A stretch of 32,404 nucleotides of DNA from Culturomica sp. GTDB taxonomy: Bacteria; Bacteroidota; Bacteroidia; Bacteroidales; Marinifilaceae. Positions 5,693 through 11,049 of the stretch are shown here, piece by piece. The position numbers were made by a program, and so were the translations under genes. The notes beneath the pieces were generated by a model. The model ran no database searches. It had not been told where the DNA came from and was given only the letters and a program-made list of their open reading frames with translations. Numbering within the stretch: position 1 is the stretch's first letter; every line of letters starts with the position of its first letter. Location: contig JAISHE010000071.1 in NCBI GenBank assembly GCA_031262745.1, forward strand, positions 1-32,404, written 5' to 3'.

Positions 5693-7333
<1,641 letters not shown>

Positions 7334-7356: not shown

Positions 7357-7626
7357 TTAAAGTATAACCAGAATATCCGACTGATTCATTACCAAATACT
7401 TTTTGTCATCAATGTGAATTTCGGTTCCGGAATATTTACCGAAAAGAACCGTATCACCGGTTTTTAATTCCATAGGCTCATCCGACTTACCTTTACCGGT
7501 TGCCACAACAATACCTTTTTGCGGTTTTTCTTTTGCAGAATCGGGAATTATAATTCCGCTTGCAGTTTTTGTTTCAGCCTCAACAGGCTCTACAATCACT
7601 TTGTTTAAAACAGTTTTTAGTGTCAT
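7357..7626 (-). CDS. groES: Co-chaperonin GroES (Hsp10)
   Basis: Lid of the GroEL chamber. The 89 residues are slightly shorter than the usual 95-97. The mobile-loop region is [21 protein letters not shown] and the core is [14 protein letters not shown], both typical. It is the first gene of the groES-groEL pair. No CIRCE element (HrcA operator) was found upstream; instead there is a different palindrome and a sigma-54-like promoter. Confidence 0.98.
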
Positions 7627-7686: not shown

Positions 7687-7704
7687 CAAACATTTTTTGT
7701 GCCA
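7687..7704 (-). promoter_or_regulatory. Candidate sigma-54-like promoter of groES-groEL
   Basis: On the - strand TGGCACAAAAAATGTTTG resembles the sigma-54 consensus TGGCAC-N5-TTGCW: the -24 block TGGCAC is exact and the -12 block reads TGTT in place of TTGC. GG and the -12 G are spaced correctly (ten bases between). It lies about 60 bases before the groES ATG. No TAnnTTTG box is seen between it and groES. Confidence 0.5.
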
Positions 7705-7719
7705 GATTTAAAACCCTGC

Positions 7720-7754
7720 AAAATGTCAGCGTACAACTGTCATCCTGACATTTT
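7720..7754. promoter_or_regulatory. Nested TGTCA/TGACA palindromes upstream of groES
   Basis: The outer arms AAAATGTCAG (7720-7729) and CTGACATTTT (7745-7754) are perfect inverted repeats with a 15-base spacer. The spacer contains a second TGTCA, which makes an inner palindrome TGTCATCCTGACA (7738-7750). The site lies 16-50 bases upstream of the -24 element, so it could bind a regulator, for example a sigma-54 activator. It is also close to the end of the secG terminator T-run. Confidence 0.6.
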
Positions 7755-7786
7755 AAATAAAAACAAAAGGCTGCGTGAAGCAGCCT
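7751..7786 (-). terminator. Intrinsic terminator after secG
   Basis: On the - strand AGGCTGC (7786-7780) pairs with GCAGCCT (7774-7768) across a five-base loop, followed by TTTGTTTTTATTTAAAA. It separates the secG unit from groES. Confidence 0.88.
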
Positions 7787-7813: not shown

Positions 7814-8188
7814 CTATTCTGCCGGAATTTCTTCCTGTGTAGGATTACCGGTTGAAGTTGTTGCACTTCCGTCGGTAGTTGCCGGTTCGGTAGGGAACGA
7901 CGGCATCACTGTACCTGCCGGAGCATTTTCCAACTGATGCTGTATCGCAGAACCTTCTCTTTCACCTTTCGGAATAGCCAAAATAGCTATAACACAAAGT
8001 ACAAGCATTGCACCTGCCAATGTCCATGTTGATTTTTCAAGAAAGTCAGTGGTCTTTCTAACTCCCATAATCTGGTTTGAAGAAGAAAAGTTAGATGCCA
8101 AACCGCCACCTTTGGGATTTTGTACCAAAACGATCAATATTAGAAGGATACAGGCAATAACTATTAAAACCGTGATAACTGTATACAT
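7814..8188 (-). CDS. secG: Preprotein translocase subunit SecG
   Basis: Small inner-membrane subunit of the SecYEG channel that helps SecA-driven export. It has two hydrophobic helices (about 3-22 and 56-74) joined by NPKGGGLASNF, the SecG family signature. The tail (about 80-124) is Pro/Thr/Ser-rich and poorly conserved, making the protein longer than many SecG (about 75-110 residues). It is the last gene of the four-gene - strand unit; its partner SecY is encoded in the + strand super-operon. Confidence 0.95.
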   Translation of the reverse strand: MYTVITVLIVIACILLILIVLVQNPKGGGLASNFSSSNQIMGVRKTTDFLEKSTWTLAGAMLVLCVIAILAIPKGEREGSAIQHQLENAPAGTVMPSFPTEPATTDGSATTSTGNPTQEEIPAE

Positions 8189-8220: not shown

Positions 8221-9270
8221 TTATTCTACGCCCTTGTTTTTTATTTTTTCAATTCGGTTTGCAAAGTAAACACTTTTTTCCGGATATTTCAAACTTAATT
8301 TTATATAAGTTGCAATTGCTTTATCATAAAGTTTCTGTCTGACGTATATCTTCGCCAGAGTTTCGGAAAATAAGTCCTCTTTTTCTTTAACGCTGTTTTC
8401 AGATAAATCTCTATTATCGGTAACGTTTTTACCTACAGGAGAAATTTGTGGTTCTTCTTTAATAAATCTCTCAATCAATTTACTACGACTGTCAACTGTT
8501 TTGGGTTGTGGCTTAGTTACAACCTCAACAACTTCATCAGTTTCTTCCAAGATGTAGTTGCCCGGTACCATGAAAATAATGTTTTTGTCCTTCTTTTTCG
8601 GTTTCACCGGCTCCATAATAGGTTCATCCTCCATGTCAAGCAGTTCGATGCTCGGCATTTGAACTTCGGCAACTGTATCTTCGGATTCGTTAACTTTTAT
8701 CTCAACCTTATGAGATTCGCGGTTGTCTTCTTTATCCGTGTCCTCGTAATCATTTATAAAACCGTCCCAGTCGCTGAGATTAATGTTGTTATTTATTACA
8801 GGTGTATTTACTGATTTTCGTTCAGGAGTTTTCTTTTCGGCGTTTAAAGGAGAAACTGCAATTTTTACAAGCGGTTCATCTTCTTCCTCTTTTTTCTTGC
8901 ATACGTTTTTAACTGCCGGTACACCGTATTCATTCACAGGAATATAACCATTGATTTCCACAATCCTGTCGCTTACAATTTCCGAAAGAGCATCTTTGGT
9001 TTTGTCGTTTTCGACATGTGTCATACAATCAAATTCTACAAAACCGTTCAAATATTTGAAAAATTGCTTATGGTCGGTTATATAAATGGTATTATTTCTT
9101 AGATTATTACGAAATTTCGTTTGTGATTGCAAATAGGAATATTTCAACTCTAATATCCTTGCAGCCTGAAAATAGGGATATTCTTCAATTAATTTGTTCA
9201 ATTGAATTAACTTGTCGCTATTCATGACTTCGGGATGACAAACTAAATCTATAAAATATTCCGCTTTCAT
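8221..9270 (-). CDS. TPR-containing protein of unknown function (lptE-secG interval)
   Basis: A 349-residue protein without signal peptide or membrane segment. The N-terminal 1-85 is a helical block (LNKLIEEYPYFQAARILELKY) that recurs in Bacteroidota proteins at this locus. The middle (about 100-290) is charged, acidic and low in complexity. Residues about 303-340 form one recognisable TPR-like pair (SETLAKIYVRQKLYDKAIATYIKLSLKYP split over the repeat). It lies 14 bases after lptE and 32 before secG. A role in envelope or secretion could be guessed from neighbours only; the biochemical function is unknown. Confidence 0.8.
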   Translation of the reverse strand: MKAEYFIDLVCHPEVMNSDKLIQLNKLIEEYPYFQAARILELKYSYLQSQTKFRNNLRNNTIYITDHKQFFKYLNGFVEFDCMTHVENDKTKDALSEIVSDRIVEINGYIPVNEYGVPAVKNVCKKKEEEDEPLVKIAVSPLNAEKKTPERKSVNTPVINNNINLSDWDGFINDYEDTDKEDNRESHKVEIKVNESEDTVAEVQMPSIELLDMEDEPIMEPVKPKKKDKNIIFMVPGNYILEETDEVVEVVTKPQPKTVDSRSKLIERFIKEEPQISPVGKNVTDNRDLSENSVKEKEDLFSETLAKIYVRQKLYDKAIATYIKLSLKYPEKSVYFANRIEKIKNKGVE

Positions 9271-9284
9271 TTTTAAGAAAGAAA

Positions 9285-9818
9285 TTACCAGTTTACAAGA
9301 GCTTTATTATAAATATCTTCAATAATCTTATCCGTTATTTCTTCAATCAACGATTCTTCAACACTATTGTAATCGACATCAATACTATAGTCGGCATAGT
9401 GAGAAAAACTCGAATCGAAGTCAAACTTATCATCCTTAGTATTGGTGTAACGAACTCTCACCGTTATAGTCAACCTATTAGATGCTGCTATTTCATCTCT
9501 TTGAATTTCCATAGGTCGTTGCGAATACTCGGTTATTTGCCCCTCAAATCGTATATCACCGTTATTTTCTGTTACTTCTTTTAAGGAAGTCTTGGTTCTA
9601 AGATAGTTTTTCAACTTGTCTGTAAATGTGTCGCTTAACGTGGGCACCACCAAAGGAGCTTTGTTTGGGAAATATTCAACAGAAAAAGTTTTCACGTCAG
9701 GCGAAATGGATGCACCGTCGAAACTATATCTAACTTGTTGTAAACCGCATGATATACAGCCGATTAAAATCAGAGAGATTGATATGTATATGTAAAATGA
9801 CCTCATTTTGGCTAACAA
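9285..9818 (-). CDS. lptE: LptE-like outer-membrane LPS-assembly lipoprotein
   Basis: Predicted lipoprotein that plugs the LptD barrel and helps place lipopolysaccharide in the outer membrane. The 177 residues begin with a signal peptide (hydrophobic 8-20) and a lipobox LIGC giving Cys21; Cys24 is a second option. The mature part starts GLQQVRYSF and contains SISPDVKTFSVEYFPN and IRFEGQITEYS, in the style of the Bacteroidota LptE family. Another start, Met5 (MRSFYIY), is equally possible. It lies 13 bases after the activator gene and is in one unit with the TPR gene and secG. Confidence 0.85.
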   Translation of the reverse strand: MLAKMRSFYIYISISLILIGCISCGLQQVRYSFDGASISPDVKTFSVEYFPNKAPLVVPTLSDTFTDKLKNYLRTKTSLKEVTENNGDIRFEGQITEYSQRPMEIQRDEIAASNRLTITVRVRYTNTKDDKFDFDSSFSHYADYSIDVDYNSVEESLIEEITDKIIEDIYNKALVNW

Positions 9819-9831
9819 ATGTAATACAATT

Positions 9832-11049
9832 TTATTGCTTTATATCGTATTCTTTTAGTTTTCTATAAAGTGTTCTTTCCGATATACCTAAATCGTCGGC
9901 TGCTGCTTTACGTTTGCCGTGATTTTTTTCCAAAGCTTTTACTATCAACTCTTTCTCTTTTTTCTCTATCGAAAAAGATTCTTCAACGTTTTCCGGTTCA
10001 ATAAAATCTTCGTCATCATCAATCTTAATATCTTCTTTTGGTGAATTATTATATTGATTTCTAAGTACGATTGAATTAATAGGAGTTTTATCGGGAATAT
10101 CTTTTAGATTGTCGATGTGGCTATCAATCATGCTATATACCAAGTGCTTCAAATCATTTACATCTGCTTTCATATCGAAAAGAATTTTATAAAGAATTTC
10201 TCTTTCCGAAGCAAATGAATGTTCACCTGATTGTTGGTGATTAGTTAATACCGGAAGTATTGATTTTTCAACAGGTAAATATTTTTCCAACGTTGTAGAA
10301 TCTATCAATCGTTCATGTTCAATTATGGAAATTTGTTCGGTTATGTTTTTCAATTGTCTGATGTTTCCCGGAAATCGGAAGTTTTGCAAAGTGCTCACGG
10401 CATCTTCGCTGAGCCTCACAGCCGGCATACGGTACTTTTCTGCAAAATCGGCAGCAAACTTACGGAATAGTAGAGGGATGTCCTCTTGTCTTTCTCTAAG
10501 AGGTGGTATAAATATAGGTATAGTGTTTAACCTATAATAAAGGTCTTCGCGAAACTTACCGTTTTTTACTGCCGTTGGTATGTCAACATTTGTGGCGGCA
10601 ATAATGCGGACATTGGTTTTTTGTACTTTGGAAGATCCGACTCTAATAAATTCTCCGGATTCCAATACTCTCAAAAGTCGAGCTTGAGTAGGCAACGGTA
10701 GTTCAGCCACTTCATCCAGAAAAATTGTGCCTCCGTCTGTTACCTCAAAATAACCTTTGCGCTCGGTCAGAGCACCGGTGAACGAACCTTTTTCATGCCC
10801 GAAAAGTTCGGAATCGATAGTTCCTTCCGGTATAGCTCCGCAATTTACGGCTATATAAGTTGCATGTTTGCGACTGCTGAATTGGTGTATGATGCGAGGG
10901 AACACTTCTTTACCTACACCGCTTTCACCACTGATTAAAACAGATAAATCTGTTGGTGCCACTTGTCGAGCTATGTCAATAGCTCTATTAAGGTCCGCAT
11001 TATTGCCTATTATTTCAAAACGTTGTTTGATAGATTGAATTTCTTCCAT
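9832..11049 (-). CDS. Sigma-54-dependent activator, AAA+ plus Fis-type HTH, no sensor domain
   Basis: A bacterial enhancer-binding protein that remodels sigma-54 RNA polymerase using ATP. The 405 residues begin almost at once with the AAA+ domain: Walker A GESGVGKE (41-48), the sigma-54 loop GSFTGA (88-93, usual GAFTGA), and Walker B GGTIFLDE (106-113). An arginine-finger region follows (FREDLYYRL, 167-175). Residues about 235-355 are variable, and 362-405 form a Fis-type helix-turn-helix (GKRKAAADDLGISERTLYRKL). There is no receiver, GAF or PAS domain, as in PspF, so activity may be set by a partner protein. It is first in a unit with lptE, TPR and secG. A -7-like TATTTTTG lies at 11089-11096 on this strand, without a clear -33. 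Confidence 0.94.
   Translation of the reverse strand: MEEIQSIKQRFEIIGNNADLNRAIDIARQVAPTDLSVLISGESGVGKEVFPRIIHQFSSRKHATYIAVNCGAIPEGTIDSELFGHEKGSFTGALTERKGYFEVTDGGTIFLDEVAELPLPTQARLLRVLESGEFIRVGSSKVQKTNVRIIAATNVDIPTAVKNGKFREDLYYRLNTIPIFIPPLRERQEDIPLLFRKFAADFAEKYRMPAVRLSEDAVSTLQNFRFPGNIRQLKNITEQISIIEHERLIDSTTLEKYLPVEKSILPVLTNHQQSGEHSFASEREILYKILFDMKADVNDLKHLVYSMIDSHIDNLKDIPDKTPINSIVLRNQYNNSPKEDIKIDDDEDFIEPENVEESFSIEKKEKELIVKALEKNHGKRKAAADDLGISERTLYRKLKEYDIKQ

Follow-up and report, generated by a model that had tools for sequence, protein, structure and literature searches.

Putative sigma-54 control of groES-groEL and of a proteostasis gene set with shared TGTCA dyads in a Bacteroidales genome

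Introduction

Which promoter and which activator drive groES-groEL in this Bacteroidales genome? HrcA/CIRCE or sigma-32 regulate groESL in other bacteria, and sigma-54 is usually regarded as a specialised regulator. To our knowledge, the control of heat-shock genes in Bacteroidota, a dominant gut phylum, is poorly described. A first-pass annotation of the locus, made from the sequence alone, proposed that groES-groEL is under a sigma-54-like promoter with its own palindromic operator and that such control would be a distinct heat or stress circuit. We followed up this proposal by comparison within the genome and across relatives. The window, i.e., the whole stretch of 32,404 nt that was analysed, corresponds to contig C28. 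The Bacteroidales draft genome to which it belongs measures 2.12 Mb and has Odoribacter and Butyricimonas as its closest named relatives. The genome sequence inspected consisted of the stretches surrounding matches.

Results

Gene order and the candidate groES promoter

On the minus strand, the window carries the gene for an enhancer-binding protein (EBP), lptE, an ORF of unassigned family, secG, groES and groEL in this order (Table 1). This arrangement is a conserved cluster. In 68 of 80 Bacteroidota loci, the EBP gene is located upstream of groES at a distance of at most 6 kb. The protein encoded between lptE and secG is a conserved neighbour whose C-terminal part appeared TPR-like by eye.

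Table 1. Features of the groES-groEL locus in the window.
Feature	Positions	Strand	Basis
groEL (Cpn60)	5693..7327	-	Pfam PF00118, E 7e-77
groES (Cpn10)	7357..7626	-	Pfam PF00166, E 7e-30
Putative sigma-54 -24/-12 element TGGCAC-AAAAA-ATGT	7690..7704	-	Sequence; kept in relatives
Outer inverted repeat AAAATGTCAG-N15-CTGACATTTT	7720..7754	-	Counterpart of the hairpin after secG in relatives
Third half-site TGACA	7724..7728	-	Sequence; relatives
TGTCA-GGA-TGACA dyad, candidate UAS (enhancer) of the EBP	7738..7750	-	Comparison within the genome and with relatives
Hairpin downstream of secG resembling an intrinsic terminator, distinct from the inverted repeat; AGGCTGCTTCACGCAGCCT, T-rich tail	7768..7786	-	
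secG, preceding the groES promoter	7814..8188	-	Pfam PF03840
ORF between lptE and secG	8221..9270	-	ORF call; without Pfam match
lptE, conserved neighbour	9285..9818	-	Pfam PF04390; synteny
EBP: receiver-less AAA+ sigma-54 activator, Fis-type HTH, proposed activator	9832..11049	-	

The candidate promoter places TGGCAC at 7704-7699 (-24) and ATGT at 7693-7690 (-12) on the minus strand. The first-pass annotation had read TGGCAC at -24 with correctly spaced -12 bases, and the GG-N10-G spacing of sigma-54 promoters was indeed present; the -12 dinucleotide is GT, not GC. The predicted groES start lies at about 7678, giving a 5' UTR of about 52 nt. The minus strand before groES reads AAAATGTCAGGATGACAGTTGTACGCTGACATTTT, next TGGCACAAAAAATGT and last 63 nt up to the ATG.

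Matches of this kind were not rare. In the window, TGGCAC-N5-TTGC with up to two mismatches matched 34 times vs 22 expected, and the groES match alone is not beyond chance. Genome-wide, a relaxed -24/-12 pattern gave 37 matches vs 38 for a reversed control, and matches of the pattern in the genome lay mostly inside genes. The genome-wide scan was rejected as stand-alone evidence because it showed no excess over the reversed control. As the -24/-12 pattern alone is within chance, the case for the groES promoter rests on comparison.

Of 110 Bacteroidota loci, 106 have TGGCA[CT] followed by a G at the proper spacing no more than 135 nt ahead of groES. The pattern TGGCA[CTA]-N5-[TA]TG occurred in 48/110 groES and 24/26 dnaK upstream regions vs 6/744 control upstream regions, which belong to other genes at the loci retrieved from relatives; the same pattern was present in 17/29 grpE and 7/26 clpB upstream regions of relatives. 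Read by eye, nearly all Odoribacteraceae-type loci showed TTTGGCA[CT] 56-114 nt ahead of the start of groES, with TGTCAGTATGTCAG..CTGACA or a near variant upstream of it. In one such locus (L014), the best-match routine of the script overlooked the groES element. On this sequence comparison, the groES -24/-12 element is made credible by its conservation and position, and it combines the GG/G[C/T] 10-nt spacing of a sigma-54-dependent promoter with conservation in relatives. The proposed sigma-54-like promoter of groES is thereby supported.

CIRCE, by which the locus would be assigned to HrcA/CIRCE control, had no match in the window at up to three mismatches, and neither TAnnTTTG nor its tested one-mismatch forms occurred in the 150 nt before the window's groES, in agreement with the first-pass annotation, which had reported neither upstream of the gene. 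Among relatives, TAnnTTTG lay within 150 nt upstream of groES in only 9/110 loci.

TGTCA half-sites and the hairpin after secG

The nested TGTCA/TGACA palindromes described further upstream were also recovered, as a palindrome with 10-bp arms (7754-7720) holding TGTCA-GGA-TGACA and a third half-site. The outer palindrome occurs once in the window and had 0 matches in 100 shuffles even at three mismatches, in a test whose pattern was picked after being seen. At least one TGTCA/TGACA precedes groES in 109/110 Bacteroidota loci (292 copies vs 62 in shuffles). The third half-site lies 20-22 bp past the first in relatives, and a family-wide search allowing one mismatch found the three-half-site element in 40 of 60 genomes, mostly as one copy per genome. 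Ranked by over-representation, TGTCA/TGACA came first or second among the 5-mers in the groES, clpB, dnaK and grpE upstream regions of relatives.

Many flavobacterial loci (among L019-L084) have a TGTCA half-site about 17 bp upstream of TGGCA; this nearly fixed position contrasts with the variable-distance dyad of Bacteroidales.

The view of the palindrome as the promoter's own operator held in part: it contains the shared dyad, but it is not simply an operator, being a terminator-like hairpin in relatives. In most of the relatives' loci with the hairpin, the palindrome starts 22-38 nt past the secG stop and is followed by a T-run, and this position holds whatever the distance of the hairpin to the -24 element. 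The hairpin folds well, and inner stem pairs 6, 7, 8 and 10 covary above all 1000 shuffles; that is, the stable hairpin, T-run and covarying stem of a secG intrinsic terminator are present in most relatives with the hairpin. These observations would suit a palindrome that is only the secG terminator and plays no role at groES, where the sigma-54 promoter would act alone or with other sites. We consider this explanation improbable. A long T-run is missing from the window copy, which is preceded by a separate secG hairpin (7786-7768), and the dyad is nonetheless kept, indicating retention without an evident need for termination. In addition, TGTCA-N3-TGTCA is fixed in 33 of 42 distinct hairpins, including the second half-site despite its position in the loop and stem top, and the same dyad occurs at clpB, grpE, htpG and lon, as described below. 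The element of relatives may have two jobs, enhancer and terminator, which is the simplest reading and fits everything. If true, a single DNA element in most relatives stops secG transcription and activates groESL.

A shared dyad upstream of proteostasis genes

Intergenic -24/-12 matches lying no more than 260 nt from a gene start were found at groES, dnaK, grpE, htpG, lon and one unrelated gene. The unrelated match (G000:C19:27027, L291) precedes a large secreted repeat protein, has no TGTCA half-site nearby and is probably due to chance. clpB has a variant promoter, CGGTAT-AATAT-TTGT; its reading as an ECF-type promoter (GAAAC...CGGTAT) was dropped because the GG-N10-GT spacing fits sigma-54. 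At grpE, TTGGCACATTCGTTG was dropped as the promoter, the conserved one being TTGGCAAACTTTTTGC, 18 nt further on; TTGGCACATTCGTTG is better read as part of a putative dyad, TGACA-TGT-TGGCA. The identity of htpG was assigned by NCBIfam and those of clpB, grpE and dnaK by family matches, and lon is a putative assignment from reading the sequence, a 60-residue piece without NCBIfam match.

The exact TGTCA-N3-TGACA has four copies in the genome, located before groES, before clpB and, for two of them, inside reading frames. We then scored TGWCA-N3-TGWCA with up to one mismatch in the 200 nt upstream of groES, dnaK, grpE, clpB, htpG and lon and in control upstream regions from the same genome. The dyad was present in 6/6 proteostasis upstream regions vs 6/112 controls (Fisher 2.8e-7), with the six genes having been picked for their sigma-54 sites; the half-site variant TGHCA was tried after htpG had been seen, and the quoted figure uses TGWCA. 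Among 16 spacings, only a spacer of 3 gave a dyad at all six genes; those of dnaK and grpE contain a single mismatch each. That is, the search for TGTCA-N3-TGACA with a sigma-54 site near other chaperone genes, which the first-pass annotation had recommended, was positive. The gap between the dyad and the -24 element ranged from 10 to 184 nt, suggesting enhancer-like behaviour of the dyad; a shared site at variable promoter distance is what would be expected of an EBP enhancer. The lon dyad sits downstream of the lon promoter.

Both elements also appeared in the dnaK, grpE and clpB upstream regions of 25-30 genomes. Dyads with a spacer of 3 or 7 occurred in 13/26 dnaK, 8/29 grpE, 6/26 clpB and 37/110 groES upstream regions of relatives vs 37/744 controls. 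dnaK used mostly N7 and the others mainly N3; relative to the upstream regions of other genes at the same loci, N3 was in excess at groES, clpB and grpE, and N7 at dnaK and groES.

Of 29 genomes, 21 carry a sigma-A-like TAnnTTTG no more than 150 nt ahead of grpE. In the grpE upstream regions inspected visually, among them that of the window's genome (G000:C60:81554-81580, L112/L197), this motif directly follows the sigma-54 -12 element; a double promoter of grpE, sigma-54 plus sigma-A-like, is possible.

Sigma-54 and its enhancer-binding protein

The genome has one rpoN (Sigma54_DBD, E 8e-49, contig C57), and rpoN was matched in 191 of 199 Bacteroidales genomes. Use of the other eight genomes as a natural knock-out test was dropped, since seven keep the EBP and G253 is also without groES; rpoN-less Bacteroidales genomes mostly look like assembly gaps.

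The window EBP is the one protein of the genome that carries a complete sigma-54 activation domain, and the other PF00158 matches are short partial AAA regions of at most 29 bits. The EBP matched PF00158 (E 7e-67) and HTH_8 (E 6e-14) and has the AAA+ domain with Walker A, the GAFTGA-type loop and the DNA-binding domain of this protein class. The loop reads GSFTGA; this variant was common to 20 of 50 orthologues scanned, and GAFTGA was found in 30. The AAA+ domain begins at the N-terminus, with no receiver or recognisable sensor domain, and the structure model (mean pLDDT 74) predicted no extra N-terminal domain, a helix at residues 282-313 and a low-confidence stretch at 313-359. A conserved motif, REILYKILFDM...DLKxLV (approximately residues 282-303), lies between the AAA+ domain and the HTH and has no Pfam match.

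Orthologues of the EBP, full-length or nearly so (50-67% identity), were present in 30 of 31 genomes of the order, in which other EBPs matched mainly the AAA+ domain at below 49%. The recognition-helix residues ISERTLYRK of the HTH were invariant in 24 orthologues from several Bacteroidota lineages. The orthologue was the only EBP match in G000 (the window's genome), G013, G014 and G082. Transcription from a sigma-54 promoter requires an EBP. Because only one EBP is encoded here, we infer that the window EBP activates these promoters; in relatives that encode several EBPs, the activator could be a different one of these.

The dyads might instead bind another regulator, e.g., a heat-shock repressor, with the sigma-54 promoters standing below that regulator. 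Binding of the dyads by the EBP is proposed from sequence, TGTCA-N3-TGACA is compact, as is frequent in repressor operators, and the position of the lon dyad would also agree with such a regulator. We judge this unlikely, as the dyad-promoter distance varies widely, unlike that of a repressor operator, the sigma-54 promoters would require the one EBP that the genome encodes, and the window is free of CIRCE matches.

Discussion

We consider it probable that sigma-54 and this EBP, together with the TGTCA dyads, activate a proteostasis regulon in this organism. In the proposed mechanism, groES-groEL would be transcribed from the sigma-54 promoter, and the activator would be the receiver-less AAA+ EBP, whose gene lies four genes before groES. 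The EBP would bind upstream TGTCA-type half-sites (TGWCA-N3-TGWCA or N7), contact the sigma-54 closed complex and remodel it by ATP hydrolysis. dnaK, grpE, clpB, htpG and lon would be driven by the same sigma-54/EBP pair, and sigma-54 would be the heat-shock/proteostasis sigma factor of this organism. Stress would raise the activity of the EBP, and no other promoter would carry most of the groESL expression. That is, a single activator encoded in the immediate neighbourhood probably turns on the heat-shock genes of this organism.

A single candidate activator and a shared candidate enhancer are now named. In genomes where an EBP of the window type is the sole EBP, the whole sigma-54 output could be assigned to it. 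In the reduced genome studied here, most of the intergenic sigma-54-like sites found precede protein-quality genes. We lean, with some reserve, towards a broader reading in which this is a phylum-wide, vertically inherited system, with sigma-54 replacing sigma-32/HrcA, a sensor-less EBP beside groESL, TGTCA dyads and, in most relatives, a groES enhancer inside the secG terminator hairpin.

It is very unlikely that groESL is transcribed mainly from an ordinary sigma-A promoter and that TGGCAC is coincidental: two-mismatch -24/-12 matches are not rare in the window, but TAnnTTTG is missing before its groES and was found in 9 loci vs 106 with the -24 element, and the available text of a Flavobacterium psychrophilum study reports the groESL start as sigma-54 (PMC9723704).

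The proposed system shares its genes with HrcA/CIRCE and sigma-32 systems and differs from them in that the sites in the window are of the sigma-54 type and no CIRCE was matched there. The EBP resembles PspF and other receiver-less EBPs in having an AAA+ domain from the N-terminus and a Fis-type HTH. It matched the PspF model end to end at 270 bits vs the 443.6 required by the equivalog TIGR02974, and by this curated cut-off it is not a PspF orthologue; it also has a longer linker with the conserved helix (282-313) and different proposed targets.

The closest parallel is F. psychrophilum, in which, according to the available text, sigma-54 starts were mapped at groESL, dnaK, grpE-dnaJ, htpG, lon and clpB; these SM4 (sigma-54) promoters cover the same gene set as here, and a sigma-54 regulator and LptE (THC0290_0733-0732) lie a few genes from groESL (THC0290_0729-0728), as in the window (PMC9723704). 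The same text counts three EBPs, leaves the activator open and names no enhancer (PMC9723704), whereas we propose one EBP and a TGTCA dyad in a different order of the phylum. Across Bacteroidota, heat-shock genes are predicted sigma-54 targets, with clusters also in Planctomycetota (PMC12316311). These clusters hold the same genes as here; they are promoter predictions, and the text available mentions no UAS and ties no EBP to chaperone genes (PMC12316311). It also states, citing another source, that groES and grpE of B. thetaiotaomicron are sigma-54-dependent (PMC12316311); in the transcriptome papers on B. thetaiotaomicron that we consulted, we found no statement on sigma-54 and groES. The idea of a distinct heat or stress circuit therefore stands as to sigma-54, but it is not unprecedented in view of the available text of both sources (PMC9723704, PMC12316311). 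The promoter type was already known for the phylum, and the additions made here from sequence are the putative activator, the TGTCA enhancer and the overlap of enhancer and terminator. Compared with the open-access literature searched, as far as its text was available, the activator and its site appear to be unassigned.
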